This document shows, piece after piece, positions 9,509-29,096 of a stretch of DNA of 37,849 nt; positions within the stretch are counted from its first letter, which is position 1; every line of letters begins with the position of its first letter. The position numbers and the translations under genes are program-made. The notes under the pieces were generated by a model, which had not been told where the DNA came from, did no database searches, and saw nothing but the letters and a program-made list of their open reading frames with translations. Source of the stretch: Pelotomaculum sp. (GTDB lineage Bacteria; Bacillota; Desulfotomaculia; Desulfotomaculales; Pelotomaculaceae); NCBI GenBank assembly GCA_018435055.1, contig JAHDOA010000054.1, forward strand, positions 1-37,849, read 5' to 3'.

Positions 9509-10637
9509 CATCAATAAGTTTATTAAAACTGCTAAAAATAAATTCTTCTTTTACTTTATAAATGAAATTAAAATCCTTTATTAGTCTGTAAATTGTTACA
9601 GCAAAGCCACCAATATCTAATTTCCTTATTGCGGTTCCATTACCTAAAGATGTACCTATTGCAACAGCAATAACGTTGCTTGTAGCTGCAATTAAGTTAG
9701 AATAACTTAGAATTTTCCTCGTTTTTACTTCATATAAAGTCTTTGAAATCGTTTGATCATAGAACAATTTATGTATCATTGCAACTAATGCATTAATTAA
9801 CATGGCAAAAGCAGCTTGCTTTGTTATTGCTGCAATATTTGCCATATCAATTCCGTAATCAGCAATATCTTTTGATAGCTCTGGTGAAATGGAAGAGACA
9901 ACAGGTATCGGCAAACTGGCAAAAGAACCAATATCTGACCTTAGGTGTATTGCTTCTTTTAAAATAGATGCCCCGATTATTTTTTTGCCCTCTGTCCCTG
10001 AGTCAAGTAATTTGTTTTTAGTGTAATATAATACTTTTGAGGTACTTGCATTGTACGCAATTTTATCCCTCGCGAAATCATTTTTAGTAAAGCCGGTCTT
10101 AATATGAAATGATCTTAAATCCCATGTAGTTAATGTTCCAGTTGCTATGTTTGCTGTTCCAAAAATCCAACCCAATAATGGATCGTGTCCAAGAGTTTTT
10201 GCTCTATGTGTAAATCCGCCCCCTAATTTCAAATTAAAATCAGGACTTCCAAAATTAGTATCAAAAGGAACAGGATTTAATAATATATCATTTAAACTAG
10301 GATTATACCATCTATAGGTTCTGTTTGAATGCTCTTCAACTCCGCTGTTTGTTTTTTTTGCAGCAGTCTTATCATCAACCCGTTCTTCAAATCCGGTAAG
10401 AATATATTGTCTCACGCACTGTAAAGCGGTTGCGGCAAATAAAAAAATAATATCAGTTTTATTTAATCCTGTTTGAATTTCAAATTCATTTTCGATTTCT
10501 TCTAACCGTTTTGGCGAATATCTCGCAATCTCCTCAACCCTTCTAGATTCATCAGCAATATCTCGCATATGATTTAGAGTGCCTAAGCTACGTTGTCTTA
10601 AATTACCTCTTTGTTTCTTTAATTTATCGGTACACAT
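9489..10637 (-). CDS. Conserved hypothetical protein paired with a DUF697-like membrane protein
   Basis: 382 residues, not assigned to a family. The N-terminus is charged and helical (RVEEIARYSPKRLEEIENEF). Residues about 55-75 (IIFLFAATALQCVRQYIL) are hydrophobic. A glycine-rich middle (LGGGFTHRAKTLGHDPLLGW) and a hydrophobic helix QAAFAMLINALVAMIHKLF follow. It has several amphipathic or membrane-associated stretches but no signal peptide. The ATG has GGAAGGA upstream and lies 18 bases after the 209-residue gene, so the two form an operon. Function unknown; a membrane-acting effector is one possibility, given only by topology and neighbourhood. Confidence 0.65.
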   Translation of the reverse strand: MCTDKLKKQRGNLRQRSLGTLNHMRDIADESRRVEEIARYSPKRLEEIENEFEIQTGLNKTDIIFLFAATALQCVRQYILTGFEERVDDKTAAKKTNSGVEEHSNRTYRWYNPSLNDILLNPVPFDTNFGSPDFNLKLGGGFTHRAKTLGHDPLLGWIFGTANIATGTLTTWDLRSFHIKTGFTKNDFARDKIAYNASTSKVLYYTKNKLLDSGTEGKKIIGASILKEAIHLRSDIGSFASLPIPVVSSISPELSKDIADYGIDMANIAAITKQAAFAMLINALVAMIHKLFYDQTISKTLYEVKTRKILSYSNLIAATSNVIAVAIGTSLGNGTAIRKLDIGGFAVTIYRLIKDFNFIYKVKEEFIFSSFNKLIDGSTQET

Positions 10638-10655: not shown

Positions 10656-11285
10656 TTAACTAGAGTTTTTTGGTAGGGCTATAAGTTTATTTCTTATTAC
10701 CAACAATTCTCTTAGCTGATTATTCTCCTCTTTTGATAGATCTAATTTTTCTTCAAGTTCTTGAATCCGTTTATCATAAACATCGATTAATTCTTCATAT
10801 TCCTGCATTTGATTTGCAAATACAATTTTTTGTTTTATAAATTCATCCGCTTGTTTTTGAAATTTAATCTCGTAATGGTGAGAAGCCTCTGTATACCCTT
10901 CCTTTTTCCATTCATATTTATTATTTTCATTAAAATGTTTTACTGCTAACCAACCAATCGCTTCTGTTAGACCTGCGGCAGTAGTTGTATTTATAATGTT
11001 ACCAATACCTGGGATCCAACCCACAACTATTTGCGTTATCCCTCGACCTATAAAAGCTGTACCACAGGATCCAATAATTCCTGTTGCTATTTTTTCTGTA
11101 ATTTTGAAACCAAATACTGCACCTAAAGAAACAATCATTGTAACTTGGATAGGAGTAATAATTGCCGCATCTGACAATGGAATCTGAGCCAATCCGGCTC
11201 CTGCAGTACCAGCTGCTACTGAAGCTGTATGGATAATGGAATTACACTGTATTTTCTGGTGTTTACTTAATTTTATTTTCTTCAT
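10656..11285 (-). CDS. DUF697-like membrane protein with C-terminal coiled coil
   Basis: 209 residues. Residues about 15-115 are a chain of glycine/alanine-rich hydrophobic helices (SVAAGTAGAGLAQIPLSDAA and GIIGSCGTAFIGRGITQIV) ending in an A-x-G-L-T-E-A-I-G-W motif. This resembles DUF697/YcjF-type domains often linked to dynamin-like or Ras-like GTPases. The C-terminal 80 residues are coiled coil (YEELIDVYDKRIQELEEKL). The start has GGGGGAG upstream. It is the first gene of a two-gene operon with the 382-residue protein and lies about 260 bases downstream of the BREX tail genes; that gap holds nothing I can identify. Confidence 0.7.
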   Translation of the reverse strand: MKKIKLSKHQKIQCNSIIHTASVAAGTAGAGLAQIPLSDAAIITPIQVTMIVSLGAVFGFKITEKIATGIIGSCGTAFIGRGITQIVVGWIPGIGNIINTTTAAGLTEAIGWLAVKHFNENNKYEWKKEGYTEASHHYEIKFQKQADEFIKQKIVFANQMQEYEELIDVYDKRIQELEEKLDLSKEENNQLRELLVIRNKLIALPKNSS

Positions 11286-11934: not shown

Positions 11935-12639
11935 TCATTCTGCCGTTAGGACTACTTTCCCTCCGAAATTATTCAGCTTGAATACCTCCGAGTTATGAAG
12001 CCACTCGTAAGAGACATCGAAGATGAACGGGAAAAACTGCGGAACACAGGATAATTCCGAAATCTCATAATAGGCCTTTTCTCTCAAGGACAGCAAGGCC
12101 ATCAGCAATATCTGAATGGATTTTTGTGCTGTCACATCATGCTTCTTAATCCTAAAGACGCTAACCTTTTCATTTTCAATGACGCCCAAGTTTCTTAACG
12201 TTTGAAGCGTCCTGCTGGTGGAATGAACGAGCGTTCCGCGCTCTCCCCATATTTCAAACAGCTTTTCTTTGAGCCAGGCTGTCGAGAATGTGTCTTGGAT
12301 GTTTGACAGCTTTCCGATTAAGCTGCAGACATCGGCAAAGACCGGGTAGGTAACAAGGAGCATGCTCCAATGGGCTGCAAGAGCATCTATGCCGCCTTTC
12401 TCCACAAGAGCCAGGGCTGCTTCACGAATGCCAAGTAGCTCTGCCGGTGTGTATACCCATGTCTGAAGCAGGATTGTTCGCGTATTTTTCAGATTCACCG
12501 CGCTGTCAATTTCGTAAGACAAATACTCCTGCAGCTCTGCCCGAATCGTTTTTTCATCGTGCCCCTGCCTGACCAATTCTGCCGTCATATTAAGCCATTC
12601 CAATTTGATCGCTCTATTCATGCCAATCACTCTTGCCAT
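11935..12639 (-). CDS. brxA: BrxA-family (DUF1819-like) BREX protein
   Basis: 234 residues, all helical in appearance. Features shared with BrxA proteins are a Trp/Pro helix (WVYTPAELLGIREAALAL), the segment HWSMLLVTYPVFADVCSLIG (about 90-109), and WLKEKLFEIWGERGTLVHST followed by RTLQTLRNLGVIE (about 120-152). BrxA is a small DNA-binding, NusB-like BREX component. It is the last core gene in type 3 loci, as here. The ATG overlaps the pglZ stop by one base (TAATG), so it is translationally coupled. Assignment rests on these patterns plus position. Confidence 0.78.
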   Translation of the reverse strand: MARVIGMNRAIKLEWLNMTAELVRQGHDEKTIRAELQEYLSYEIDSAVNLKNTRTILLQTWVYTPAELLGIREAALALVEKGGIDALAAHWSMLLVTYPVFADVCSLIGKLSNIQDTFSTAWLKEKLFEIWGERGTLVHSTSRTLQTLRNLGVIENEKVSVFRIKKHDVTAQKSIQILLMALLSLREKAYYEISELSCVPQFFPFIFDVSYEWLHNSEVFKLNNFGGKVVLTAE

Positions 12640-14084
12640 TATTCAACCGCCTTTATCTTGACAAAGGGTACAATCACTTCATCGATAGTGATGCCGCCAT
12701 GAGTCATAACTTGAGTATTTTTATTATCGAAAGACACGCCTGTTTTGCAGATCAGATACCGAAAACTCTTGTCCAAATAATACGCCGGATATTCCACGGT
12801 GTTTTCCATAACTACATTGCTAATATCGGCAAAGTCCTTCAGGATCAACATCCGCTTTGCTTTTGTTTCCACCTCGACACCCGCATGGCGCAGGGGGCCT
12901 ATTCCCCGGCACAACGTGTTGCCGTGGTCTGCCGTCAAGTATACCGTAAAGCCCGCAGTATGTAAGGAGCGGATCAATGCTTGAATCCTGCCCGTCCTGG
13001 CCAGCATTGTTATATCATTATACATCCCCGGGCGCCCTTGCCGCTGCCCGTGAACGATATCGTCAATGTCGTTAATGATGACAGCCAGCAGCTTCGTGAA
13101 AGGACTCGGCTGCACATCATACCCCCGGATATAGGCCGCCTGCTGCTTGGAGTATCCGTGTTCCGCGGCGGCGTCATAAAAGCCTTTTTCTTCTTTGCTG
13201 AGTGAAAACGGATTTTCCAATTGTCTGGGATATTTCCCGCTTAACAGGCATTGCCTGGAAATCGCTGTCGTGGACGGGATCAGGGCATATGAACATTGCA
13301 GCTCATACTCGATCCCCTTGAAATACCGGGAGAGGATATTAAAATCAAACAGAGACATACCATCCATCACAATTAGAGCAGCTCTATCCCTTGCAATATA
13401 ATCAAAGACCTTCGGCAGAATGGTGGGCGCCGCGCTGCTTATTTGGCCGGAGAGCTTTTGATAATCAGCCAGGACAAATCGGCCAAAGGCTTCGTCCACA
13501 AATGACATATCAATGGCAAGTCCTGCTCTAGCGGCATAGACTTCAACAGAGGCTTTGACCAGCGCAATATCAAACCAGCCGGAATAACTGAGTGCCTTTC
13601 CGCTATCAGCCGGGAGGATAGACGCAGAAACCAGATCACAGAATCTTTTAACGTTATTCCTGGCAAAAACCTGGTCCTCAATAAAGTATTCTGTTTGTGT
13701 TTCACGCAATTTGTCAGAATACATACCATCGTATGTGAAGCCGATAATGTCTAGATCACTTATATGCCTGGCGATTACCGTTTCATCAAGTTTGGGAAAG
13801 ATAGCGCCCAGTGACAAAGTTACTTCGTAAAACCCGGTCCGGATGTCATAGGGCACATATGTATCATCCCTGATAATGACTGCCCATTTCTCCGGTGAGT
13901 TCTTTATTTCTAACTCGTAACGCAGCCGGAATGCCTCCACATCTGTATAATGGACAACACAAAAACCCTCGGATGCAAGAAGTCCAGGATAGTCAAAAGC
14001 ATCGGAAAACCCGCCAGGATCAAAAACAAGCAGGCGTTTCTCATATTTGATTGATAAGAAATCAGCAACTCTATCTTTAATCAT
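12639..14084 (-). CDS. pglZ: BREX phosphatase-like protein PglZ
   Basis: 481 residues, short relative to type 1 PglZ (about 850) but suited to type 3. The N-terminus (KRLLVFDPGGFSDAF, 16-30) and YPVIIRDD-like strand WAVIIRDDTY begin the fold. The alkaline-phosphatase-superfamily core has ALIVMDGMSLFDF (236-248, metal Asp), the nucleophile region STTAISRQ (271-278) and TADHGNT (384-390, metal Asp-His). PglZ is indispensable for BREX and is thought to act in complex with the methylase and BrxB/C proteins. It begins three bases after the helicase stop. All core metal-binding residues are present. Confidence 0.94.
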   Translation of the reverse strand: MIKDRVADFLSIKYEKRLLVFDPGGFSDAFDYPGLLASEGFCVVHYTDVEAFRLRYELEIKNSPEKWAVIIRDDTYVPYDIRTGFYEVTLSLGAIFPKLDETVIARHISDLDIIGFTYDGMYSDKLRETQTEYFIEDQVFARNNVKRFCDLVSASILPADSGKALSYSGWFDIALVKASVEVYAARAGLAIDMSFVDEAFGRFVLADYQKLSGQISSAAPTILPKVFDYIARDRAALIVMDGMSLFDFNILSRYFKGIEYELQCSYALIPSTTAISRQCLLSGKYPRQLENPFSLSKEEKGFYDAAAEHGYSKQQAAYIRGYDVQPSPFTKLLAVIINDIDDIVHGQRQGRPGMYNDITMLARTGRIQALIRSLHTAGFTVYLTADHGNTLCRGIGPLRHAGVEVETKAKRMLILKDFADISNVVMENTVEYPAYYLDKSFRYLICKTGVSFDNKNTQVMTHGGITIDEVIVPFVKIKAVE

Positions 14085-14087
14085 GGG

Positions 14088-16760
14088 TCACTCCATCCGC
14101 ACCAACATCACGAGCTTGAACTCAGGGCAAATACGCATGCCTTCTTCAAACCGCTTCTGCACTTCGGCTTTTTCCCTCGCCAGCAATTTCAGCTTGTGAC
14201 TGCGGATGTTCTCAATGCCGATATGTTGAGCCGCTTCAATTCGCAGCTCAAGGGCATAAATGTATTTTCTATGGGTTTCCTCATTCCTTTTCTCCACGCC
14301 GGACTTGAGCGCCAGGAAGGTTTCATAAGCAAACTCCTGGGAAGCACCCTGCAAAGCCATCCATGTTTCACTGTCGATCTTTTCACCCACACTTAGCGTA
14401 AGAACCTTATTTGTGTCGAGGAGAGCGTCCCAAATCTTCATGCCCGCCATCGGGCGCAGTATAAAATCGCTGTTGATAAAGATCGGTAAGATCTTCTGGC
14501 CTTGGGTTTCGGCGGATACAGCAAGCCGCCACAGCATGAAATAACCCTTTTCGTTCGGAAAGTTCTGTATGGACACATTCATAACCGGGCTTTCGGTATC
14601 CTGCTGAAGCTCTTTCTTCAGATGCTCCACGATAATGGCGTCGTTTATGCTGAAATGCTCGATCGGCAGGTACGGGTTCCCCATAGAATTTTCGTAATAC
14701 ATAACCATAAGCCGCAGGGCATTTTCAAAGTCAAAGGACGATTCCGACCCTACCAAAGAAGTCAGATCTTTGTCCTCAGTGATCAGCTCGTGAAACCTTA
14801 TGGTGTTCTGCACTTGCTTCTTCAAATCCTCTTCTATCGGGCGGATGTTCAGATCTATATCCTTGGGATAGCGGATCGAGCTCATGTAGGCGCCGGTGAA
14901 ATTAATACCTGCAGCTTCACCGTCAAGTACATCGGCATACTTGTCGACGCCGAGCTCCTTCAAGATGACAGACATCTTTTCCTCCAATACATCCCTGACC
15001 CGGTTCTCCACGGTGTCGGCCAGGACGAAGTTAAAGACGACAACGTCCCGCTGCTGCCCGATACGGTCGACACGGCCGATGCGCTGCTCGATCTTCATCG
15101 GGTTCCACGGCAGGTCAAAGTTGATCACGCAGTTTGAAAATTGAAGGTTAAGACCCTCTCCGCCGGCATCAGTGGAAATGAGGATATCTGTCTTAGTTTT
15201 GAACTCCGCCAGCACCGTGTTTCTCTCATCGATGCTCAAGCTGCCGTTTAGCGTGGATATGGCATACCCCCGGCCCATGAGCAAGTCTTTCAGGTAATTC
15301 TGCGTGGCTACGAACTCCGTAAAGATAATCGTCTTCCGGTGCTTGTCCGCCGCGTAAAGGTCGTCGATCAGCGCCAGCAACGGTTCCACCTTTACATCAC
15401 TGTACTGGAATTCAGCCTGCTTGGCCACGTCGATGATAGCGGTAAGTTGGGCGATCTCCTCTTTGATGTCCAGCGATATGGCGGAAATGGCGTCCTCGAG
15501 ATTTTCTTCCAAGTCCATCTCCGCAAACTCTTCCTCTGTCATGGACTGGTATTGGAACTCCTGTGCTTCAAGCACGGCGACGCGCTTCTCTAAACTCTGC
15601 CGAACGGCGCTCGTACTGCTGGTAACCAGCCGCTGCATCATGATCAGCAGAAAGACAAACCACATGTTCTTGCCACGTTTTCTCATGGCCTTGTTATAGT
15701 TCTTGGAAACGTACCCCGTCACCATTTCATAGAGCTTTTGCTGTATGGAATGGCGCTCGTCCCAGTGCAGGCTGATGATTTTCGTCTGGCGGTTTTTGAA
15801 TAGCTTATCCCCGTTGTTGTCAATGGCGTTTCGCTTCTCTGTGCGGATGACATAGGGAGCGACCTGTTCTTTCACGATGGCCTTATAGTTGGGGAAGGCC
15901 TTTTCATCCACCAGCCGGATCAGGCGCAGGAATGGTTCGGTCTTGCCGTTATGGGGAGTGGCCGTCAGCAGCAGAAGATACGGGCTGGCTTGTGACAGCA
16001 GATTCCCCAGTTTGTAGCGCGCTACCTCACCGGTGCTGCCCGCGACCCTATGGGCCTCGTCGATGACGACCAGATCCCAGCCGCTGTTAATGATGGAATA
16101 GATGCGCTCCTCATTGTACTTCTCAATCCGGGCCTCGTCCCAGCCGATGCGCCGCTCCAAAGGCTTGATGGAATCCATCGGGGATATGACCTGATCGAAC
16201 TGGCCATACACATCGTCGCTATCGGTGATCTTGCGTATCGTGTCGTAGTCTTCGGGGAGGATGATGTTGAACTTCTCCCCGAACTTCTCCTGCATCTCCA
16301 GATTCCACTGGGTCACTAGCCCTTTCGGGCAGACAATTAGGATACGCTTGATCAGGCCCCGCGTCTTCAGTTCCTTGATGATCAGCCCCGCCTCAATTGT
16401 TTTTCCGAGTCCCACCTCATCGGCCAGGATGTAGCGGATGTTGTTATTGGACAGGGTGCGACCCAGCACATGGAGCTGATGGGGCAGCGGAATGACGCTG
16501 CTCGACAGCTTGGAGAGCACACCGGTGGAGGTTTCATTTTTGATCTTGCACAGCAGGGAAACATAGCGAAAAAAGCTCTCCTGGTAGGTTTCCGCAAGGG
16601 CTTCAGCGCTTATTTCATTTGCGGGCAGCTTATATACCGAGCCGGAGGATGGGTTGTACAGCTTATAGGAAATAAATCCCCAGGCCTCACTGATCTCAAT
16701 GACCTGCACCCGTTCTTTTGTTGTAACATCAAAAACATATTGGCCGACACTGAACATCAT
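14088..16760 (-). CDS. brxHII: SNF2-family DEAH helicase, BrxHII of type 3 BREX
   Basis: 890 residues. Motif I is DEVGLGKTIEAG (114-125), motif Ia VCPKGLVTQW, motif II DEAHRVAG (234-241) and motif III LTATPHNG. In the second RecA domain there is TIIFTEF, then STDAGGEGLNLQ, and motif VI IEQRIGRVDRIGQ. This is a RapA/DrmD-like double-stranded DNA translocase. In type 3 BREX a helicase of this class sits between the methylase and pglZ, as here apart from the inserted PrrC-like gene. The ATG overlaps the upstream stop as ATGA. Base composition is GC-richer than the upstream neighbour. A DISARM drmD reading is disfavoured because pglZ and brxC are present and drmB is not. Confidence 0.9.
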   Translation of the reverse strand: MMFSVGQYVFDVTTKERVQVIEISEAWGFISYKLYNPSSGSVYKLPANEISAEALAETYQESFFRYVSLLCKIKNETSTGVLSKLSSSVIPLPHQLHVLGRTLSNNNIRYILADEVGLGKTIEAGLIIKELKTRGLIKRILIVCPKGLVTQWNLEMQEKFGEKFNIILPEDYDTIRKITDSDDVYGQFDQVISPMDSIKPLERRIGWDEARIEKYNEERIYSIINSGWDLVVIDEAHRVAGSTGEVARYKLGNLLSQASPYLLLLTATPHNGKTEPFLRLIRLVDEKAFPNYKAIVKEQVAPYVIRTEKRNAIDNNGDKLFKNRQTKIISLHWDERHSIQQKLYEMVTGYVSKNYNKAMRKRGKNMWFVFLLIMMQRLVTSSTSAVRQSLEKRVAVLEAQEFQYQSMTEEEFAEMDLEENLEDAISAISLDIKEEIAQLTAIIDVAKQAEFQYSDVKVEPLLALIDDLYAADKHRKTIIFTEFVATQNYLKDLLMGRGYAISTLNGSLSIDERNTVLAEFKTKTDILISTDAGGEGLNLQFSNCVINFDLPWNPMKIEQRIGRVDRIGQQRDVVVFNFVLADTVENRVRDVLEEKMSVILKELGVDKYADVLDGEAAGINFTGAYMSSIRYPKDIDLNIRPIEEDLKKQVQNTIRFHELITEDKDLTSLVGSESSFDFENALRLMVMYYENSMGNPYLPIEHFSINDAIIVEHLKKELQQDTESPVMNVSIQNFPNEKGYFMLWRLAVSAETQGQKILPIFINSDFILRPMAGMKIWDALLDTNKVLTLSVGEKIDSETWMALQGASQEFAYETFLALKSGVEKRNEETHRKYIYALELRIEAAQHIGIENIRSHKLKLLAREKAEVQKRFEEGMRICPEFKLVMLVRME

Positions 16761-19021
16761 GCTACACCGTTCACTACTCTCGGTTGCAGTGCATCCACTT
16801 GACCTTTGTACCTGACTTCCATGAATTCAACAACAGCTTTACAAGCTGTAACGATTACGTCCGTAGAAAATGGTGGTTGATTACGCACGGGGCCGTGGGA
16901 CAAGTCCTGACACAGGGTAAAAATGCAGGAATTACTAGAGAGCATCTCATTTCCCGCAATATACGTTTGCAATGATTTTTTCGGATATTCAAATTTACTC
17001 ACTGTTTCAAGCACATGCCGAATAGAATTTGCGCTTGTATGGGATGGTTGTTGAACACCGGATGCTATATCAACGATATCTTTTAGATGGTTTTCATATG
17101 GCATCAGCAATTGATGTTTTAGCAATTCGATTTTCCCAGGCTTCATGACGTATGCTCTGTTAATTATATGATTTCGCGTAATAATGCTAAAAAACTCCAG
17201 GTTATGAGTGAACACCCACATCCTGACGTAAGTGCTAATTTCGAAACATTCTTTTATATCTCGCAATGACTGGGCAACAGCATAAACGAAATGAAAATCC
17301 ATACTGGATATTGGATCATCAATAATGAAAAATAACCGGTTATAATCATTTTCACGACTTAAGCATAAATGAGTTGAAGCAAGATAATAACAAAATGCAA
17401 CAATGCTTTTCTCACCATCACTTAAAATACTCGTAGCTTTTTGTCCGATGTTATTACCTAAAAACCTTATTTGAAAGGTCTCCCTATCAATAGTGTATTT
17501 GCCAGAGAAAAACTTATTAAGGAAATATTCCAGCGTTTTATACACTTTCTCTTTTTTACTGATGCGGGCTTGCTGCTCCTTTTCAATTATGCTGTGCCGC
17601 AATCCGTTTAGCTCTAATGTCAAACTATCTATTTCCTTAAATTGAGTGAATAGAGAGTTAGAGACCTTCAAATATTGGGCCTTGCACAAATTACGTCTTA
17701 ATTGCAGACGTTCTGCATTAGTATTCTGTTTAGTTCTGTTTACTGTATTTATAATCGATGAGTTATTTCTTTGAAGTTGCAGTAAGTTGCATGTATGTTT
17801 TTTGCATTCAGCAACAAGTTCTTGAACAGAAAAATCGGTATTCATGAGGTTGTCGCTCTTATTCAGCAATGCACTTATTATCCCGTTGAAGCAATCAAAA
17901 GCAGTATCTTTGCAATTTGGTATAGCAAGTGTCGTATTTCCAAGTGAAGGAAAATATTTCTTTAATTTTATAATTTCTGCATTTGCTATTTTGGTTTCTC
18001 TACAAAAATTTTTAATATTTTCAATAATTTCATTTATTGCAGATATTTTACCTTCAATCCCCCGCAGAAACTCAGCTTCTTTGTCAGCCAGAAAAGCCTT
18101 ATAACTATGAATTATTCCTAAAGCTACATCGTCAATAGATTGTTTGCAAAATGGACATATTCTATCGGTGTCATTAAAAACTTCGAGCCCTTTCACTATA
18201 AAAGATCTATGCTTTTTTATGTATGAAACAAACTCCCCATCCCATTCCGACTTTGAGTAGGAGGTTGCGAGCAGCTCGGTTATTTCATCAAAAACGGAGG
18301 CATTCAGACTTATAGCAGGATCGTTGACATCAGGGATTCCTTCAGGTAACTGTTTTAACAATTCGAGTTGTCTTACAATCTCCTTGAATGATTGGACACT
18401 GTCTTTTACCTCATTCTGACGTAACCTTTCCTTTTCAATAAGTGTAAACTCTGTTGTCGAGGAACGTATGCCTTTATCCCGAAGTTCTTCTTTTGCATTA
18501 TCAACAATTACATCAATGGCACCGTCTTTAGCTATAATCTCACCTTTTAGCCTTTCTTCGCGCTCTTGTTCTTCAGTGATATCTATCTGAATTTTGCCTA
18601 CGATGTAGCCTTCTATGTTTCCATCAGGGGTATAATCCCGAGGCTTAATATTCTCTTCAACAAAATCGCTGTTAAAGACATGGAAAATAAAACCCGAATC
18701 GTTTTGTACACCGGGGGGTGTGCTTCTCTGCACTGAAATAGATAATTTTTTCTCGTCTATTGGAGTTGCTGTATTTGCAATTTTTAGACTAAGTGCACCT
18801 GACGATTGTCCGAGGGTAAGCAAATCATCAGCGTTTGAACCAAATTTGTCGTCAGATGTTAATCGAAAGGCACGGCTAATAAATGATTTTCCAGTACCGT
18901 TTGATGCATAGAAAATCGCTTTGTTTGAATCAACTTCATCGGAAAAATTTATTTGATTAATCCCATTATGCGGACCGATATTATTTACGTTCAGGTTTAC
19001 AAGGATCTTCTGTTCGGGCAT
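16757..19021 (-). CDS. PrrC/RloC-like ATPase with anticodon-nuclease-like C-terminus
   Basis: 754 residues. Walker A is ASNGTGKS (39-46). Coiled coils flank a single CPFC at 289-292, like the zinc-hook of RloC. The ABC signature is LSDGEKS (533-539), Walker B FFIIDDP (564-570) and the His switch VFTHN (603-607). The C-terminal tail has R668-HVL-E672 and H709 in LSHG. PrrC's tRNA-cleaving site is an Arg-x3-Glu plus a His some 30 residues later; here that spacing is 37. PrrC/RloC nucleases cut tRNA in the anticodon loop when a partner restriction enzyme is inhibited or DNA is damaged. The gene starts three bases after the methylase stop and overlaps the helicase start by four. It is AT-rich, suggesting insertion into the operon. 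A plain OLD/RecF-like ATPase is the alternative. Confidence 0.78.
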   Translation of the reverse strand: MPEQKILVNLNVNNIGPHNGINQINFSDEVDSNKAIFYASNGTGKSFISRAFRLTSDDKFGSNADDLLTLGQSSGALSLKIANTATPIDEKKLSISVQRSTPPGVQNDSGFIFHVFNSDFVEENIKPRDYTPDGNIEGYIVGKIQIDITEEQEREERLKGEIIAKDGAIDVIVDNAKEELRDKGIRSSTTEFTLIEKERLRQNEVKDSVQSFKEIVRQLELLKQLPEGIPDVNDPAISLNASVFDEITELLATSYSKSEWDGEFVSYIKKHRSFIVKGLEVFNDTDRICPFCKQSIDDVALGIIHSYKAFLADKEAEFLRGIEGKISAINEIIENIKNFCRETKIANAEIIKLKKYFPSLGNTTLAIPNCKDTAFDCFNGIISALLNKSDNLMNTDFSVQELVAECKKHTCNLLQLQRNNSSIINTVNRTKQNTNAERLQLRRNLCKAQYLKVSNSLFTQFKEIDSLTLELNGLRHSIIEKEQQARISKKEKVYKTLEYFLNKFFSGKYTIDRETFQIRFLGNNIGQKATSILSDGEKSIVAFCYYLASTHLCLSRENDYNRLFFIIDDPISSMDFHFVYAVAQSLRDIKECFEISTYVRMWVFTHNLEFFSIITRNHIINRAYVMKPGKIELLKHQLLMPYENHLKDIVDIASGVQQPSHTSANSIRHVLETVSKFEYPKKSLQTYIAGNEMLSSNSCIFTLCQDLSHGPVRNQPPFSTDVIVTACKAVVEFMEVRYKGQVDALQPRVVNGVA

Positions 19022-19024
19022 TCG

Positions 19025-21562
19025 TTACACCCTCCCCAGGCTCAGGTCGTAGTACATGAGCAGTTTATCGTCCTCTTGAATTATTTTCTCCGGTAGGCGC
19101 TCGGCGGTATCTACAATGAGTTTGTAGTTCTTGTCCGCCCACAGCTTCGCAAAACCCACCCGGATTGCCTCCGTACGGAACAACTTGAGCTTGCCTTTGA
19201 TAGCGAGGTAGCCTTCAAATTCCTTAAGCAACCTCTTTTCGCGGAGCCTGGCAACGTCGGCTTCCTTTGTGCGGTCGGGTATATACCATTTGCCCTTATC
19301 ATCCTGCAGGAAGCTGTCCTCCAGTAATACAGACAACTCCGGGATTGCCTCATACTTGTCGACGGTCTTGCTTTCCTGCATGAATTTAGGCTGTAACTCC
19401 GCATAGGTTTGTGGTGTAACGAGCTGCTGGTAGAGCCAGGCGATGGCAGACTTTTCATTGGTGACAAAGAGCTGGAATTTAATCTGCTCAACTTCATTCA
19501 TAATGCGGGCGGTATCATATTCATTCACCTGATCAGACAGGAAATACATTTCGTCACGTTTCATGAACCTTTCATCAAGCCCTCTGTAGAAGTCACTGGC
19601 ATCCAGAGGAACCGAGATACCATTCATGATATGGTAAGCCACCATGCGGTCGAACAGCAGGAATGCCTGCCTTTCAACTATGAGTTCTATTTTGCCGTTT
19701 TCAACGACCGCAACAGGCAGATTTTCAAGATGCTGGCGGACAAAGCTCCATGCGGTTTCCTCGCTGCCTGCTTGAGAAATTAAGTCTCTTTTAAAGCTAT
19801 CTTTTGGTTTATAGGCTGTAATTGCTAAATCTTTTTTTACCGCATTAATAGCAACTAATTGATGTAAACTAGGTCTTTTTTTATCAAGTATTCGAATATC
19901 TGCTACAATAAATCCTGCACGAATCAATGCTTCCTGTATTGAGTTCCATACTGCATTCCTGGAATTGTGAAATTCAACTGTCATCCACCTATTTGGCTTT
20001 AATATTCGGTAAAATTCTTCAAAACATTTAGTCATTAACCATTGGTATTCTATAATACCTTTCCTTTGAACCTTGTTAATGACAGCCTCTGTTTTATTAT
20101 TTGTTTTTAACTTCAACCATGTTTCCCATATAAAGCTTAGCTCAGAATAATTTAGATTATCACCAAAAGGAGGATCTGTAAAAATATAATCAATACTGTT
20201 ATCTGGAAATTGATTCAATGCAGTCGAAGATTGGGTTGTAATAGCAACAGAATTATTACGACGAAAATACATTTCCTTAATAGATTTGAATTTATATTCC
20301 AAAAGTGTAATTATGTTTTGCTCAACAACCAGTGAAGGGATATATAATGTACCCGATTTTGGGCCATTTATCCTCCCCTTTGGATTATATTTGTTAATAA
20401 CATAACGATTACATTTATAGGCATTACGATTAACTATCCCCGTTAACAATGTTAAAAGTTTTGTTCTATTTTCATAAATTGAAATTAAGTTATACAATGC
20501 GCTAAGCAAATATTGCGTTCTCTTTGTATAAAATAAATGAACATTTGTTACCCCATGAGAACGTTTGGGTTGTTCTGTATTATATCCTTTAGGCAACTCT
20601 TCGTTAGGATACCAAAATGGAATCCTAACTTGTTCTATTTTATCAATTAATTCCATATCTAGACTATCAGGCATCTTTTTGTAACGTTTCCCATTATATA
20701 TATAATTGATTAACACAGGTACTTGCTTCGCTATACTAACTGTTTTCTTAAGTGAGTTGTCGTAAAAAATAGTTTGCGCCCTTTTACAACTAACCTTTTT
20801 TATTTCAGCGTTACATGAATCGCAATTGAAAGAATCCATAACTGTAGCACGTTTAAAGTCAACAGCTACATTCCAATATACTATTTCCTTGCTGCAATAA
20901 GGGCAAATAAACACATCAGACCAGACGGTATAATTAATTATTCCTTTTTGACTATCATTGGAATCACCAACATTATGAGATGTGGTATACATCCATTCAC
21001 ATTGTCTTCGTAATTCTTCAATTATAGCCTTTGCATTTTTATCATATAAATCAATATCTGTAGAGGAACAATAATTATAAGAAATATAGGTCGCCGCTGG
21101 GGATAAATCATTTAATATACAGTATCTTTCCCCCCAAACTAAATGGGGGATCTCTGACTTCAATTGTTTCTTTAACACGGGATCATCTGAACCACATATT
21201 TGTGCGGCAACACCAGTCATACCTGACCCACTAAAACCATCAAAAATTAAATCACCTGGATCAGTATAATGTAAAATATACCTCATGATTGCCTTATGAG
21301 GAACCTTTGTGTGATAACTATGAGCAGTATATATAGGATCATTTTTACCCACACCAACATCTACAGAAAAAGGTTTTCTATGATAACTGTCTGTAGCCTC
21401 ATCAAAAGGCTTTCCATTTTGTTTAATAAAATTCTCAATAAAGGGGTTAGGACACGCAGTATAATACGGGGGATCAGATAGTTTAATTATATCTTCCTCT
21501 TTGGCTAATGGAAAACCTTCAATATTTATTACCTTACTAATATCATCTCTTGTCAGTTTCAT
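19025..21562 (-). CDS. pglX: PglX-type DNA methyltransferase of type 3 BREX (PglXI-like)
   Basis: 845 residues. An N-terminal DPPYYTACPNPF (30-41) precedes SAM motif I FDGFSGSGMTG (107-117) and NDLSP (151-155). A four-cysteine zinc ribbon lies at C220/C223 and C247/C250. The catalytic motif is TDPPFGDN (462-469), with Phe in place of the usual Tyr. A long C-terminal region (600-845), probably for specificity or partner contact, follows. BREX methylases modify adenine in a non-palindromic host site; that modification marks self. The start has GAGGGGAG upstream. Composition changes sharply near 19790 (about residue 590): row 20281-20340 has 18 G/C of 60, row 19081-19140 has 30 of 60, so the gene is a mosaic. 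Confidence 0.87.
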   Translation of the reverse strand: MKLTRDDISKVINIEGFPLAKEEDIIKLSDPPYYTACPNPFIENFIKQNGKPFDEATDSYHRKPFSVDVGVGKNDPIYTAHSYHTKVPHKAIMRYILHYTDPGDLIFDGFSGSGMTGVAAQICGSDDPVLKKQLKSEIPHLVWGERYCILNDLSPAATYISYNYCSSTDIDLYDKNAKAIIEELRRQCEWMYTTSHNVGDSNDSQKGIINYTVWSDVFICPYCSKEIVYWNVAVDFKRATVMDSFNCDSCNAEIKKVSCKRAQTIFYDNSLKKTVSIAKQVPVLINYIYNGKRYKKMPDSLDMELIDKIEQVRIPFWYPNEELPKGYNTEQPKRSHGVTNVHLFYTKRTQYLLSALYNLISIYENRTKLLTLLTGIVNRNAYKCNRYVINKYNPKGRINGPKSGTLYIPSLVVEQNIITLLEYKFKSIKEMYFRRNNSVAITTQSSTALNQFPDNSIDYIFTDPPFGDNLNYSELSFIWETWLKLKTNNKTEAVINKVQRKGIIEYQWLMTKCFEEFYRILKPNRWMTVEFHNSRNAVWNSIQEALIRAGFIVADIRILDKKRPSLHQLVAINAVKKDLAITAYKPKDSFKRDLISQAGSEETAWSFVRQHLENLPVAVVENGKIELIVERQAFLLFDRMVAYHIMNGISVPLDASDFYRGLDERFMKRDEMYFLSDQVNEYDTARIMNEVEQIKFQLFVTNEKSAIAWLYQQLVTPQTYAELQPKFMQESKTVDKYEAIPELSVLLEDSFLQDDKGKWYIPDRTKEADVARLREKRLLKEFEGYLAIKGKLKLFRTEAIRVGFAKLWADKNYKLIVDTAERLPEKIIQEDDKLLMYYDLSLGRV

Positions 21563-21652
21563 TCTCTACTCCCCTCATATATTAGGTGTGCATTTAATTA
21601 AAACACCAGGAAATATTTAAGCTTTAGCAAATATTATTCCCTATCCATGAAT
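21563..21652 (-). other. Only sizeable gap inside the BREX operon
   Basis: Ninety AT-rich bases between the UDG-like stop and the methylase start, against 0-27 bases elsewhere in the operon. It carries the methylase ribosome site (GAGGGGAG) but no clear terminator. A secondary promoter for the methylase is possible; I cannot point to convincing -35 and -10 boxes. Confidence 0.4.
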
Positions 21653-22405
21653 TTATCCCCTGAGTGCCTCCATTATGGTATCAATATAATTTTCACGCCT
21701 ACTTTGTGGGTGTTGTGTAAAAATAATTCTACAGTTTTTATATTGTCCTATTTTTTCAATAAAACACCCAGGTGAATCGATTACTTTAATATCTAATCTT
21801 TCTATAAAAGGTTGATACCAGGTTTCACCGGCCATTATCAAAATATTATTTGGATTCAATAGATTCAGTTCAATCCGTAATAATTCCACACAGTCATTTA
21901 ACTGTATTTTTTTCAAGGTTCTCGAAGGGTTTCCACCATCAGCAGATACAATTTTATAAAGATTTGACCATGCGATATAGTTTGACCAATTTCTACCACT
22001 ATAATTTACAAGCCTCCTTTGAACAATTTTTTTACTAACCCTCCAAAATGCAGATTTATTCGTATTGCAAATCGGATTATCATGTCCATATTTTATAACC
22101 CAAGACATAGGACATTTAGAACGATCTTCCGCTTTTGCACGGATTAAACCAATAATTTGGGACCTTTTATTCTTATTACTTGCCTCACTGGGTAACCAAT
22201 TTATAGTTATACTATTTATAGGACCGATAGGTGCCCTACCAATTATTAATAGATCATTCTTACAGCAGTATTTATTTCCACTGACCACCCAACTTGCTGT
22301 TATGCTGCCATTTTTATCCGGGTAGTATTTTGATACCTTTGCTAGCATAGAGTCAAATCTATTTTTATACATTCCACTCATATTTATATGGCAATTATTT
22401 ATCAT
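21653..22405 (-). CDS. Uracil-DNA-glycosylase-superfamily protein embedded in BREX
   Basis: 250 residues. Motifs in family order are LLIIGRAPIGP (about 52-62, motif A; family 4 has GEAPG), then WSNLYKIVSADGGNPSRTL (about 145-163, matching the N-x-x-K...G-N-x-P block). ELNLLNPNNILIMAGETWY (about 178-196) and FTQHPQSRRENY (about 228-239, the motif-B H-P-S loop) follow. The order and spacing fit the UDG fold, which flips and excises a damaged or modified base. The target is unknown; a phage-modified base is attractive given the context. It starts nine bases after the brxC stop with a weak AGGA ribosome site. It is AT-rich like the first part of the methylase. A non-catalytic UDG-fold DNA binder is the alternative. 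Confidence 0.7.
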   Translation of the reverse strand: MINNCHINMSGMYKNRFDSMLAKVSKYYPDKNGSITASWVVSGNKYCCKNDLLIIGRAPIGPINSITINWLPSEASNKNKRSQIIGLIRAKAEDRSKCPMSWVIKYGHDNPICNTNKSAFWRVSKKIVQRRLVNYSGRNWSNYIAWSNLYKIVSADGGNPSRTLKKIQLNDCVELLRIELNLLNPNNILIMAGETWYQPFIERLDIKVIDSPGCFIEKIGQYKNCRIIFTQHPQSRRENYIDTIMEALRG

Positions 22406-22414
22406 TATAAATTC

Positions 22415-25400
22415 CTAACGTTTTACTACTATCCGCAGTTTTTCTTTATCTTTTCCCCTGGAATAGCTATCTATTACACCAGTGACGCGGGCTTTGAAGG
22501 TATCCACATCACAGGGGCCAATGGCGTCCAGCTTGTCAATCAGCTCATATGCATTGATGGTGACGGGCTCAAACCCTTGCAGCAACGCTTCGATGGCGCA
22601 TATAAAGAATGTGTCGATCTTCTCAGGCAGTGCCTTTGTTTTCAAGAACTCATCAACAACAGACTGCTGGTCGGGGGTAAGATACTTTTTCTGATCCAGG
22701 ACCAGCGGATCAGAGAGGGTATTCAAAAGGGTCTTTGTCCATTCCTTCAGCAGGTTGTCCATACGTTCTTCAAGCTCATCCAGTTTCCCTTTGACGGGCA
22801 GGTCGCCCCCGCCCATGAGGAAATGGCACTTGGCGCAGAAGTGCGTTGTTTTTAGCATCCCGGTGGTAAGCTCAAAGCACACTTTCAGCCTGGACAAATC
22901 CTTCTCGATGCCGCCCAGCTTGGAAGCGGAGAGAATGCCGATGGACCTCAGCCGTTTCAGGTTTGCCAGCTTGCCGGAACTGACCATATTTCCTTTACGC
23001 TGGCCATCGCTCACGCCCAGTCGTTTCTTTTGATGCTCAGCAAAATACAGGTCGATGTACTGCGCTTTTACTCTAGCCAGCAAGTCCACCACATCTGCAG
23101 CGGAGGATTCCCCGCTCATGTCTTCCGGTAGATCATCGCGGATTTTACGGAAGTTCTCTTTCGCATCGCTGATTGCGTCCGTTAGTAACGCCGGTAGTTC
23201 CATCCGCTCCAGGTTCATCATGTAGCCCACATCGGCGGCGCAATCGTTCTTGAACTTCTCGTATTCAAGGACGATCTTTACCACCGCTAGATCCTTACCG
23301 AGCTGCTCGACCTGTTCCATCGTGTAGGTGAAATTGTTGAGCTTAGCCACGGTGTTGAAGCGACTGCTGAAGTTGCTGAAGGTATCGCGGACATTGGTCG
23401 CCGCCTGCTTATAGCCCTGGGTGATATGGTCGCCGATAAGTGGTTCTCCCCACAGCTCAAACTCGCCGCTTAATTTGCTGTGCGCTCTGACGGCCATATT
23501 CGCCGCCGCCTGCGCTTTCGCCAGCATCTGCCCCAGGCCGGCTTCGCGCTGGGACGGGTTATTGATCAGGCCGGCCGGCAGCTCCAATAGCTCATACAAG
23601 CGCACCAGCTCTGCCAGCTGGATGTCTTTCGGCTTGGTGATGTACTTAAATTCGTAGATGTCCATCGCGGATATTTTTGGTAATGATTCAAGATCGGAAG
23701 CGGTCAGCGTTGTTCCGTTTTTCAGCGCGATCACGGCGTGGCCTGAATAGACCAGGCTGAGCAGGACGATGGGCATCAGCGCATAACTGATGCCGAATTG
23801 CTTGTCTATATACCCGTCAAACACCTCGTTATAGATATCGCTGAAGTTGATCACGGTGTTTACCGGCAGGCTGTTTAGCTTTTTAATGAAGTGCTGGGCA
23901 TATTGCGAATTCTGGACGGTGATAGCATCGCCGTCCAGCAATCCGAAGCTTTCCAGCAGGGCGTTAGCCTGCTGGCTCTTGCGCCCGGCGTACCTGTCGA
24001 TCCCGGCGCGAATAGTCTCCGCCTGATTACGAAGGGTGATCTGGGTCTTGAAGCGCGGTATTCTGGGATATTTCTCACTAAACCAACCGTCCAGGCATAT
24101 CGATGCCACCAGGTCGATAGTCTCCTTGAACGGATTGGTGTTTTTATATTGGCCCTTCATCACCTCGAGAAGCTGTTTCTTCTCGCCTTTATAGATAACC
24201 TCAAAGCAGGTGTTCTTGTTATCGCTGAGAAATTTCGTCAGCTTTTTCTTGAACACTTCCGCCTTGTTGTGATAGGCGCTTTTGTTCTTTTCCTCGGCCA
24301 AATCCTTCATCATCAGGGCGGCGGAATAGAGCTTCAGCGTATTCTTGAATTCCTCGTTGGGCTTGAACTCAAAGAACACTTCATCGGGCTTTTTCTCGTA
24401 GGTGTATGTCTCGTTGCTATAGGGGGGAACGAAGTAAATATAATAATCCTCCGGCGGCTGTGCGGTCGGTCGGTTTTCCGGTGTACCCAAGAATAGGTAG
24501 CCCCGGCGGAAGATATTGTGTGAAGTCCAGTTCAGGGTATGCTCATAGATTTTGAAATTGGTGACATGCTCCTTCTGCTCCCATTCCAGGCAGTAATAGA
24601 TCACATCGTAGAAGTAGTTGTTCATGATGTCGTCATCCATGATGGCAGCCCGCTGGGTGATCTTCTCGTCATAGTCAGTGTATTTTTTAAGGTTGAGATA
24701 ATACTGACCGTTTTCGGTGTTATTCTCAATAAATTGGCCGCTCACAGTCGTAATGACGTCTTTAAGCACAGTCTGAATGACGGACTGTAGCGTGTCGGAG
24801 CTTTGGTCAGGCATGTCGGCTATGTACAGGCAGAGATCGTCTCTCAGGTTCTCGGCGGTAAGGCCGGCCCGGATGCTGATATCGCCGGTGGTCAGTCTAT
24901 GAACGCTGAGGGCATGAATGATCTGCAGGGCCAGCGGCTTATACAATCGCTTGGGGAAAGAGCGGTTGACAATATCTTCGAGTATGCCGCTCTTTTCAAC
25001 GACCTCCTTGATATTGGCGTCTGTCCTGAGCGCCAGGTTTTCCTTGATAAATGACCAATAGCTGTCGAAGGACAAAATGCCGGGGGCATCCCTGGTGATT
25101 TCGTCATCGAGGATGCGCCGGATAATCTCTGAGATGTTTTTCAGGACGTGGCGGTTTTCGATAATGTAAATCTTATTGAAAACGTCGATATAAGAGGGAT
25201 GTATAGGGAAAAGGCCGACGTATTCCTCGATGCGCTCGGACATATTGGAATACAGGTTGCAAAAGGGCAGCAGATGTTCCCGGACAACAGCCATCTGCTC
25301 AGGCGTCTTTTTCAATATCCTTTCGGAGACCACATAAGCCGTGTCCTCTTTACGGATGATGACCTGCTCAAACCTGTCCTTGACGCGATTCAGGGTCTGA

Positions 25401-26092
25401 GACACAAAGGAGAAATTGGGATTGTCAAACAGCTTCTCCTGGACGCCGAAAATGACACGCAGCCGGCTGTTCTTTATAATCTCGCCCAGTTCGCGCATGA
25501 AACCCAGATCGAGCTTGACTTCCTGGGCCTTTCTGCCACCCAGATAGTCAAGGAACTCGTCAACTACGATCATATATCCTTTTTCCGGATACTTCGCAGA
25601 GAACGTCTCCATCATTTTCAGAAGAACATCTTTGTTTGTTATAATCTCTTTCTCATCGGGAAACGAAAAGGAAAGTCCGCGATCCTCGAAGTCCTGCTTC
25701 ACTTTATTCAGGATGATATTCCGCAAAGACATCTGCGAGGCGCCGATCTCAATCCGCAGCACTTCAAAGCGCCCGGCGATGCATTTGGCGTCATCCGCGA
25801 ATTTTTTATTCTGTACATAATTAAGATTATCGGCGTCGAGAGCGACTGCCGATATAACCGACATCAAATGAGATTTACCTGTACCGTAGTTACCGACCAG
25901 GAGGACGCCTTTGTTATCAACTACATCCTCCAAACAAAGCTGTGTCAGCATGTTGTTCTTCAACTTGTCCGCCATGTCGTCGGACATGACATAGCTCTTC
26001 ACCAGATTGGTGGCGATGTTTTTGTCGTTGGCAGCGGTCAGCTGGATCACGCTGTCGATGGGGTTGAAATTGATTAAATCAGCATACCTCAT
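22415..26092 (-). CDS. brxC: BrxC/PglY-type large ATPase (DUF6079-like) of type 3 BREX
   Basis: 1225 residues from the ATG at 26092, chosen because GGGAGG lies ten bases upstream. An in-frame ATG at 26116 has poorer spacing. Walker A is GNYGTGKSH (67-75) after LLV, and Walker B MIVVDEFLDYLGG (174-186). A sensor-like FGVQEKLFDNPNF follows about 35 residues later. The rest is a long helical region with a late CAKC pair (about residue 1110) that could bind zinc. BrxC is a AAA+ ATPase required in all BREX types and is thought to scaffold the defence complex on DNA. The length and position (second gene, after brxF) fit type 3. Composition is GC-richer than the UDG gene next to it. Confidence 0.9.
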   Translation of the reverse strand: MRYADLINFNPIDSVIQLTAANDKNIATNLVKSYVMSDDMADKLKNNMLTQLCLEDVVDNKGVLLVGNYGTGKSHLMSVISAVALDADNLNYVQNKKFADDAKCIAGRFEVLRIEIGASQMSLRNIILNKVKQDFEDRGLSFSFPDEKEIITNKDVLLKMMETFSAKYPEKGYMIVVDEFLDYLGGRKAQEVKLDLGFMRELGEIIKNSRLRVIFGVQEKLFDNPNFSFVSQTLNRVKDRFEQVIIRKEDTAYVVSERILKKTPEQMAVVREHLLPFCNLYSNMSERIEEYVGLFPIHPSYIDVFNKIYIIENRHVLKNISEIIRRILDDEITRDAPGILSFDSYWSFIKENLALRTDANIKEVVEKSGILEDIVNRSFPKRLYKPLALQIIHALSVHRLTTGDISIRAGLTAENLRDDLCLYIADMPDQSSDTLQSVIQTVLKDVITTVSGQFIENNTENGQYYLNLKKYTDYDEKITQRAAIMDDDIMNNYFYDVIYYCLEWEQKEHVTNFKIYEHTLNWTSHNIFRRGYLFLGTPENRPTAQPPEDYYIYFVPPYSNETYTYEKKPDEVFFEFKPNEEFKNTLKLYSAALMMKDLAEEKNKSAYHNKAEVFKKKLTKFLSDNKNTCFEVIYKGEKKQLLEVMKGQYKNTNPFKETIDLVASICLDGWFSEKYPRIPRFKTQITLRNQAETIRAGIDRYAGRKSQQANALLESFGLLDGDAITVQNSQYAQHFIKKLNSLPVNTVINFSDIYNEVFDGYIDKQFGISYALMPIVLLSLVYSGHAVIALKNGTTLTASDLESLPKISAMDIYEFKYITKPKDIQLAELVRLYELLELPAGLINNPSQREAGLGQMLAKAQAAANMAVRAHSKLSGEFELWGEPLIGDHITQGYKQAATNVRDTFSNFSSRFNTVAKLNNFTYTMEQVEQLGKDLAVVKIVLEYEKFKNDCAADVGYMMNLERMELPALLTDAISDAKENFRKIRDDLPEDMSGESSAADVVDLLARVKAQYIDLYFAEHQKKRLGVSDGQRKGNMVSSGKLANLKRLRSIGILSASKLGGIEKDLSRLKVCFELTTGMLKTTHFCAKCHFLMGGGDLPVKGKLDELEERMDNLLKEWTKTLLNTLSDPLVLDQKKYLTPDQQSVVDEFLKTKALPEKIDTFFICAIEALLQGFEPVTINAYELIDKLDAIGPCDVDTFKARVTGVIDSYSRGKDKEKLRIVVKR

Positions 26093-26119
26093 CTGTATTA
26101 GTCCTCCCTCTATCATCCC

Positions 26120-26563
26120 TTATATGACACAAGTAATGTCATAGTCTTGTATTCTGAAAGAGTGATAATCACTGTATTCCGGCGCAGCATACTCCAGCGA
26201 ATTTCCATTTAGCCTGCCGCGCCACTTAACGACAACCTTTTGCCGCCGTGATATTTCTATGAATACCTTGATCGCGTCAATGTCATAGCGAGGATCAAAC
26301 AGGATTTCGTAGTCTTCAAGAAACGTGGGGTCATGGCATTCGGAGACGATCTTCATAATTTCGTCGTTAGCTTTCCGGCTTCGCTGGGACTGTGGGATTT
26401 TTAATAATGCCTCGGCCAGCTTGATATTCAGGTTCAGCGGGACAAATTTGCCGCTCTCCATTAGCTTTGCCACCCTGTTTGAAAAGGAGCAAAGGATGAT
26501 CGGGGTTGTAGCTTTTTTGAGCACATTCGTGTTCAGCATAGATACATTGATCGTGACTCCCAA
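26120..26563 (-). CDS. brxF: BrxF-like first gene of type 3 BREX, without a recognisable P-loop
   Basis: 147 residues. As I recall BrxF, a P-loop is followed by a strand 'iNvnl.LS..Ll.lp..qR', then 'EILFDP' and 'vvaWpG....g.L.YA.PghpeY'. The present protein has LNLNIKLAEALLKIPQSQRS, YEILFDPRYDIDA, KVVVKWRGRLNGNSLEYAAP and EYSDYHSF in that order, so the family is convincing. Where GxxGxGK[ST] should stand it reads PIILCSFSNRVAKLM, so nucleotide binding is probably lost. The start is TTG at 26563 with AGGAG eight bases upstream; ATG at 26539 is the alternative. It lies 27 bases before brxC. Confidence 0.75.
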   Translation of the reverse strand: MGVTINVSMLNTNVLKKATTPIILCSFSNRVAKLMESGKFVPLNLNIKLAEALLKIPQSQRSRKANDEIMKIVSECHDPTFLEDYEILFDPRYDIDAIKVFIEISRRQKVVVKWRGRLNGNSLEYAAPEYSDYHSFRIQDYDITCVI

Positions 26564-26792: not shown

Positions 26793-26844
26793 TTGCAGAC
26801 TATTATTAATGAAGGATTATTATATTTTTCTAATGATACTAAAG

Positions 26845-26870
26845 AAAGCCGGTCTATGTGCACCGGCTTT
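26845..26870 (-). terminator. Hairpin terminator after the 103-residue ORF
   Basis: AAAGCCGGT and ACCGGCTTT form a perfect nine-base stem with an eight-base loop. It lies 25 bases past the stop of the minus-strand ORF at 26895. The U-tract is short (TTTCTTT), so termination may be partial; it could also work in the other direction. Confidence 0.6.
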
Positions 26871-26894
26871 CATGTTTGCTGGCGAATTTTTAAT

Positions 26895-29025: not shown

Positions 29026-29096
29026 CCCAGCCTCACCTTTCTTATCCTGAAAAACTTCCAGACGGCGCATGTTTTATCCCCGCAAAATTAACCTTT

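Follow-up and report, generated by a model that had tools for sequence, protein, structure and literature searches.

The contig of Pelotomaculum sp. analysed here in its whole length (JAHDOA010000054.1 of assembly GCA_018435055.1, 37,849 nucleotides, hereafter the window) carries a complete type 3 bacteriophage exclusion (BREX) operon in which both junctions flanking the methyltransferase gene pglX are occupied by an additional gene, one encoding a divergent protein with a predicted uracil-DNA glycosylase (UDG) fold and the other a putative RloC-type anticodon nuclease. An earlier note on this DNA, made from its sequence alone, had taken these genes for a distinct eight-gene arrangement. A survey of related loci showed that the two inserts do not travel together, the nearest relative (locus L095) having the RloC gene without the UDG gene, and what the window shows is exchangeable cargo in a new pairing, not a fixed eight-gene machine. 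We consider it quite probable that this is an intact type 3 BREX with both of its cargo positions filled, in which RloC would serve as a back-up and the UDG-fold protein as a base-excision layer, both being independently acquired cargo and the latter having been co-imported with the variable specificity region (target recognition domain, TRD) of PglX.

Eight intact open reading frames (ORFs), all on the minus strand, fill positions 11935-26563 in the order brxF-brxC-[UDG]-pglX-[ATPase]-brxHII-pglZ-brxA; the tight packing, order and outer limits claimed in the earlier note were all recovered. The six core genes stand in type 3 order and each was matched by BREX models in profile searches, with scores far above what chance would give, which confirmed the proposed type of the system. 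The first gene, brxF (26120-26563), encodes a BREX-3 P-loop-like protein (NF033453, 86.5 bits, cut-off 50; PDLC02497) and is followed by brxC (22415-26116), coding for a DUF6079 ATPase (PF19557, 1469.6 bits; PDLC02482, 1378.9 bits), pglX (19025-21562), for the type 3 adenine methyltransferase PglXI (PDLC02541, 1145 bits), brxHII (14088-16760), for a Swi2/Snf2 helicase (PDLC02500, 981.8 bits), pglZ (12639-14084), for a short PglZ of 481 amino acids (aa) (NF033449 'BREX-3 PglZ', 255.8 bits, cut-off 250), and brxA (11935-12639; PDLC02437, 188.5 bits). The note had named a placement of the ATPase, methylase or PglZ outside the BREX families as the outcome that would speak against it, and BrxC, PglX and PglZ all matched BREX models. 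BREX-3 cut-offs were passed by BrxF and, in spite of its short form, by PglZ, which when aligned to the 661 aa PglZ of L044 lacks about 170 residues in the N-terminal half with respect to the 640-660 aa form; short PglZ proteins are common to the relatives, and 36 loci encode one of 550 aa or less. As claimed, two further genes (21653-22405 and 16757-19021) are embedded in the same transcription unit: the core and inserted genes are separated by 3 nt (brxF-brxC), 9 nt (brxC-UDG), 90 nt (UDG-pglX), 3 nt (pglX-RloC) and 3 nt (brxHII-pglZ), or overlap by 4 nt (RloC-brxHII) and 1 nt (pglZ-brxA), and no strong terminator was found between the operon genes on the coding strand. Published type 3 BREX systems have the same six core genes in the same order and the same four-cysteine TRD insert in PglX, which PMC12839542 makes part of the type 3 definition and which is represented in the window by the invariant C220, C223, C247 and C250. 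The window differs from a plain type 3 BREX in the two extra genes beside pglX and in the short PglZ.

For the survey, 398 genomes sampled from the phylum provided 40 type 3 loci, and a scan of GTDB species contigs with an eight-member PglX profile provided 80 more named loci; removal of duplicates left 116 non-redundant loci including the window. A junction between neighbouring core genes was considered filled when the gap reached at least 300 bp. The brxC-pglX junction (bay 1; 21563-22414 in the window) was filled in 30 of 103 loci, the pglX-brxHII junction (bay 2; 16757-19024) in 43 of 77, and the pglX-pglZ junction, where no helicase lies between the two genes, in 6 of 26. Gaps in the other junctions were almost never seen (brxF-brxC, 0/88; brxHII-pglZ, 1/71; pglZ-brxA, 0/93), so that the bay junctions were filled in 79 of 206 cases versus 1 of 252 elsewhere (Fisher p ~8e-31). 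The pattern held at thresholds of 150, 300 and 600 bp and in both sub-samples, with the plain phylum sample alone giving 3/37 for bay 1, 13/28 for bay 2 and 0/98 elsewhere. Filled and empty junctions differ cleanly from stop codon to start codon, an empty bay 1 measuring 12 nt in the relatives L095, L047, L057 and L061, and an empty bay 2 17 nt in L080. It should be considered, as points that weaken this result, that bay 1 was filled in 3 of 37 loci of the phylum sample versus 26 of 65 in the set of PglX relatives, its fill frequency therefore depending on sampling, and that the junction statistics derive from ORFs called in the sequence, not from expression, with metagenome-assembled genomes (MAGs) among the sources.

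The same loci served for counting the inserts, as the earlier note had proposed. A UDG of the window type was absent from the 115 remaining type 3 loci and from the 30 type 1 regions searched, and RloC-type ATPases occupied bay 2 in three of the 116 loci (the window, L095 and L047); neither insert is thus a universal core member. The two occur together in the window only, and L095 carries an RloC orthologue in the same bay as the window and no UDG gene in bay 1. Whatever the content, 15 of 92 loci had both bays filled where 10.0 were expected, which amounts to a mild positive association (Fisher p 0.026). From these counts and the co-filling of the bays, UDG and RloC are rare, do not belong to the core and are not obligately linked.

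Comparison with L095, on a Eubacteriales MAG contig, revealed the mosaic structure of the window operon. The identity between the encoded proteins was 96% for BrxHII, 93% for BrxA, 92% for BrxC (343 aa seen), 90% for PglZ and 85% for RloC, versus 67% for PglX. At the DNA level, the 3' end of brxC is 94-97% identical with a GC content of about 0.5; the UDG gene (GC 0.33) has no counterpart in L095; the 5' two-thirds of pglX drop to 48-71% identity and a GC of 0.30-0.38; and identity recovers to 77-88% in the 3' third of pglX, 85-92% in the RloC gene and 88-97% from brxHII to brxA. The sliding comparison thereby delimits an AT-rich divergent tract (19900-22405, minus strand, GC 0.30-0.38, versus about 0.5 in the surrounding DNA) comprising the UDG gene and the 5' two-thirds of pglX. 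It includes the TRD (PglX residues ~121-455, positions 20198-21202, minus strand), as defined by the L095 identity profile, 32 close pairs and invariant columns. When the GC of the TRD is set against that of the core of the same locus, the window ranks second lowest among 75 loci. Judging from these sequence profiles, the UDG gene and the current specificity region of PglX were probably imported on one tract, import being favoured over fast divergence because of the GC jump. Against this it must be said that TRDs evolve fast and some of the low identity may be divergence, and that the L095 contig starts inside brxC, which leaves the brxF side outside the view.

Exchange of the specificity region extends beyond the window. 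In the 30 close pairs of loci whose cores are at least 88% identical, the TRD never reached 80% identity and stayed under 60% in 11 of them, while both ends of PglX kept 74-100% identity. L057, L061 and L082, whose cores are 94-99% identical, hold three different bay-2 cargos, and L063 and L099 carry the same cargo and have different TRDs, patterns which indicate that TRD and cargo can also change separately. We infer that the inserts are independent cargo which recombination in the conserved core genes on either side brought in, and infer likewise in which direction the transfer went.

Both bays recur in type 1 BREX. The phylum sample also yielded 30 type 1 regions, in which gaps were found at brxC-pglX in 6 of 27 and at pglX-pglZ in 11 of 26 cases, versus 0/24 at brxA-brxB, 0/25 at brxB-brxC and 2/22 at pglZ-brxL (17/53 against 2/71, p 7e-6). 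Published single cases fit this pattern. In the type 1 BREX of pEFER, BrxU lies between brxC and pglX, and the two systems were shown experimentally to act as complementary layers (PMC8565348); like the window UDG it is an extra gene at the brxC-pglX junction, and it acts against modified phage DNA as the window UDG might, although BrxU is a GmrSD-type nuclease beside a type 1 core and the window has a UDG-fold protein in a type 3 operon. In the Salmonella StySA BREX an ATPase and a DUF4435 protein lie between pglX and pglZ (PMC9009780), an accessory module in the junction after pglX as in the window, but with a type 1 core and two separate proteins where the window has a single RloC-type one. 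The layered defence that the earlier note envisaged therefore has precedents at equivalent type 1 positions, and it is the idea of eight genes forming one distinct arrangement that is not supported. As a broader and clearly tentative proposal, which we hold to be possible but rather less than even in its chances, BREX of types 1 and 3 at least might be regarded as a chassis, the junctions flanking pglX as payload bays, and payload and PglX specificity as exchanged in one unit, through recombination in the conserved core genes around them. If true, one event would change both the methylation mark and the second line of defence, and the UDG and new TRD of the window could be read as such an exchange unit.

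The cargo found in other loci is diverse: 136 proteins fell into 86 similarity groups, and many inserts belong to known defence families. They include OLD-type ATPases (L034, L036), a HEPN-type DUF3644 protein (L035), Mrr (L040), a combination in L038 of GmrSD (bay 1) and SIR2 plus HerA (bay 2), DUF488 proteins with DuOB (L058) and, labelled by reading of their sequences, a PHP-SMC 'Ppl'-like protein (L057; the PHP part) and HEPN-MNT-like pairs (L085, L090). Three loci carry in bay 2 a nucleotidyltransferase and a small membrane protein that, by the same kind of reading, look CBASS-like (L079:12572-14092, L092:12578-14139, L098:12554-14094). A type III CRISPR module (Cmr1, Csx11, Cmr4) follows pglX in L041:2070-9734 and L120:3026-10561, of type 3, and in L213:11846-18988, of type 1; a two-gene cassette of an 881 aa PHP-SMC ATPase and an AlbA-like protein of 384-387 aa was seen in L210 and L220 (type 1) and in L139:3402-7189 and L143:2994-6781 (type 3). 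Each of these two modules recurs at the same bay across types 1 and 3. A strict division of labour, with anti-modification genes in bay 1 and abortive ones in bay 2, was entertained and dropped, as DUF262/GmrSD-like proteins occur in both bays; the AlbA-like group is also present in both, mostly in bay 1.

The bay 2 insert of the window (16757-19021, minus strand) is predicted to encode an ABC-ATPase/anticodon nuclease of 754 aa, which the PADLOC PDC-S06 model PDLC04898 spans over its full length (735 bits; PF13166 AAA_13, 109 bits). RloC proteins were defined by a zinc-hook insert, ABC motifs, a size of 658-897 aa and an Arg-x3-Glu-x36-52-His triad, often with Ser before the His (PMC2610378), and all of these features were found: a Rad50-like zinc hook (CPFC, 289-292) in the coiled-coil insert, the ABC motifs LSDGE (533-537), IIDDP (566-570) and THN (605-607, including H606), and a complete triad (R668-x3-E672-x36-H709) with S708 before the histidine. 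Neither the triad nor the hook residues vary between the window protein and those of L095, at 85% identity, and L047, at 25% identity and from another PDC-S06 subfamily. Two points weigh against the assignment, namely the Walker A motif, ASNGTGKS, with Ala replacing the first Gly, and an AlphaFold model from three sequences that was unusable (pLDDT 37), so that the prediction of the nuclease domain comes from motifs. PrrC in the strict sense (341-416 aa, no zinc hook, linked to type I restriction-modification) was rejected given the size, the hook and the BREX linkage. Of the PrrC/RloC-like label first given to this ATPase, the anticodon-nuclease type thus held, every diagnostic residue being present, and the PrrC part did not, so that the protein is better called RloC. 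It shares hook, ABC motifs, triad with preceding Ser and size with the characterised RloC proteins (PMC2610378, PMC3874168), which unlike it are not inside a BREX operon, although RloC family members within Pgl operons had been noted in 2013 (PMC3710099). A search of 299 genomes with PDLC04898 returned the window protein as the sole match, no relatives were found in viral contigs, and phmmer gave no match among PDB chains.

The bay 1 insert (21653-22405, minus strand) encodes a 250 aa protein for which we propose, with moderate confidence, a UDG-superfamily fold, divergent and outside any numbered UDG family; the UDG-like glycosylase gene of the earlier note was supported to that extent. Its match to PF03167 (E 1.8e-4) scored 22.0 bits, 2.3 bits under the Pfam cut-off of 24.3, and two of three distant relatives also fell below the cut-off, the third being unmatched. 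The AlphaFold model was weak (pLDDT 58, pTM 0.59), and within the moderate weight this allows, Foldseek ranks 1-29 were all UDG-superfamily structures and the best VIA-align Z score, 9.8, was obtained with a family-4 UDG. With hhalign, the protein aligned to the canonical family-4 UDG of its own genome with a probability of 90.9, which places N148 at the conserved Asn of the canonical enzyme, and H232 at the His of motif 2. The pocket residues G56, F120/W121, N148 and H232 are conserved, and G56, W121, N148, H232 and P233 are invariant between the window protein and its distant relatives. Besides the sub-threshold score and the weak model, a further point against a functional glycosylase is motif 1, GRAP, which places R57 at the position of the family-4 catalytic Glu, and the protein may have lost its activity or have a different substrate. 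Membership in family 4 was rejected, as motif 1 lacks the Glu and the four Fe-S cysteines are absent, no Cys standing at the KC position of the canonical UDG of the genome. The closest functional parallels are the antiphage DNA glycosylases Brig1 and Brig3 (PMC11078745, PMC13160076), which like the window UDG are glycosylases in a defence setting. Brig1 is structurally close to family-4 UDG, its homologues are often near BREX/Pgl genes, and it has a Glu (E147) at the Watson-Crick reading position (PMC11078745); by this base-reading mark the window UDG, with Asn (N148), would not be a Brig1 orthologue, a distinction based on the published Brig1 residue and not on a sequence alignment. Relatives are scarce: a single-sequence search of the 398 phylum genomes recovered only the protein itself and one stop-riddled match, profile searches few distant relatives, tblastn against plasmids and phages and a search of viral contigs none, and phmmer no match of any kind among PDB chains. 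One distant relative lies directly after a gene with a HEPN-like C-terminus (L077, a label given by reading of the sequence) and another overlaps a gene for a 594 aa protein with a HEPN-like C-terminus (L162:7829-10377), possibly as a two-gene unit.

For activities, triggers and substrate we infer the following. BREX would mark host DNA via PglX and block unmarked phage DNA as the first barrier. RloC would normally be restrained by the ATPase and zinc-hook parts of the same protein until DNA breaks or failure of BREX led it to cut tRNA and stop translation, an abortive back-up layer for which PMC12839542 offers a comparable proposal in PARIS-like modules. The UDG-fold enzyme would most likely excise a non-standard pyrimidine, so that the DNA of phages hidden from BREX by base modification would acquire abasic sites. 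Since N148 matches the Asn of uracil glycosylases and not the Glu of Brig1, a uracil-type base (deoxyuridine, 5-hydroxymethyluracil) is the better guess, likelier than glucosylated cytosine. The attack on modified bases suggested in the earlier note stays at the level of such a prediction.

Other explanations were weighed. A dedicated, layered eight-gene system, in which the glycosylase and a PrrC-like toxin would have evolved together with this BREX as its working components, would agree with the tight single operon, the slight excess of loci with both bays filled and the precedent of complementary layers (PMC8565348). Against this reading, the inserts are separable, as L095 demonstrates, and the bays hold many unrelated genes while each of the two inserts is rare; the GC of the UDG tract is also sharply unlike that of the core, and we judge such a system unlikely. 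Nor do we favour a trigger chain in which base excision in phage DNA causes strand breaks that activate the Rad50-like RloC, even though linear DNA and agents that break DNA activate the anticodon nuclease of RloC (PMC3874168) and its gene shares one operon with the UDG: RloC exists without UDG in L095, which makes the abasic-break link weak, and it answers breaks from many sources and needs no partner, so that the chain appears improbable as well.

The UDG-fold protein could also lack any part in defence and be a repair enzyme, either degenerate or of housekeeping type, or cargo carried passively, as the replacement of the motif-1 acid by R57, the score under the Pfam cut-off and the purely distant relatives would suggest. 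On the other hand, a canonical family-4 UDG is already encoded in this genome (C22, L159), the pocket residues are invariant with the distant relatives, the ORF is intact within a defence operon and Brig1 homologues are frequent near BREX/Pgl genes, which leaves this explanation doubtful. Finally, the bays themselves would be an artefact if gene calling, frameshifted core genes or MAG misassembly had created them. Many of the loci are indeed MAGs and a few gaps, those of L113 and L156, contain no ORF of at least 100 aa; but the other junctions on the same contigs were almost never broken, the result was stable across thresholds and sub-samples, and many inserts are known defence families, so that we give this possibility very little credit. 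An intact BREX carrying independently acquired cargo on both sides of pglX accounts best for the data.

Parts of this picture have been published before, namely effectors embedded in BREX loci, RloC genes within Pgl operons and glycosylase genes in the neighbourhood of BREX. For embedded effectors across BREX types and a layered model, the source is PMC12839542, whose main text names nuclease effectors and mentions neither glycosylases nor PrrC/RloC. A description of the two-junction rule or of the co-exchange of TRD and cargo was found neither there nor elsewhere in the literature searched, most subscription journals lying outside it. The positional pattern is wider and more interesting than the UDG/RloC pairing itself, since it brings BrxU, the StySA ATPase pair, RloC in Pgl operons and glycosylases near BREX under one rule, whereby extra immunity genes enter BREX beside the specificity methylase and almost nowhere else. 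Such a rule would explain the variety of BREX accessory genes, makes reading the bays a simple route to new defence genes and allows a direct test of whether self-mark and back-up weapon are exchanged in linkage. One concrete candidate also emerges, a UDG-fold enzyme that has an Asn in its active site and whose substrate may be uracil-type phage DNA.

Some observations concern the surroundings of the operon. The genome of the window holds five BREX loci. Three are of type 3 and differ in their bay-2 cargo, L058 (G000:C12), the window (C60) and L063 (G000:C66), and two are of type 1, L212 (G000:C23) and L230 (G000:C69); with an estimated contamination of 4.36%, the five need not all belong to one organism. 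Upstream of brxF, a 10-bp bidirectional terminator-like hairpin (26844-26871) was detected by consensus match only, terminator-like sites as a class being no more numerous in total than in shuffled sequences. Farther upstream and on the same strand as the operon lies an ADP-ribosylglycohydrolase gene (27979-29070); Brig1 and a homologue have also been described beside such a gene (PMC11078745). Downstream of brxA, again on the same strand, a DUF697-like coiled-coil protein (10656-11285) and a protein with no Pfam match (9489-10637) are encoded, and transposase genes of the IS21 type (IstB and rve) and of the IS3 type are located on this far side of the operon, at 296-2593 and 6751-7900.

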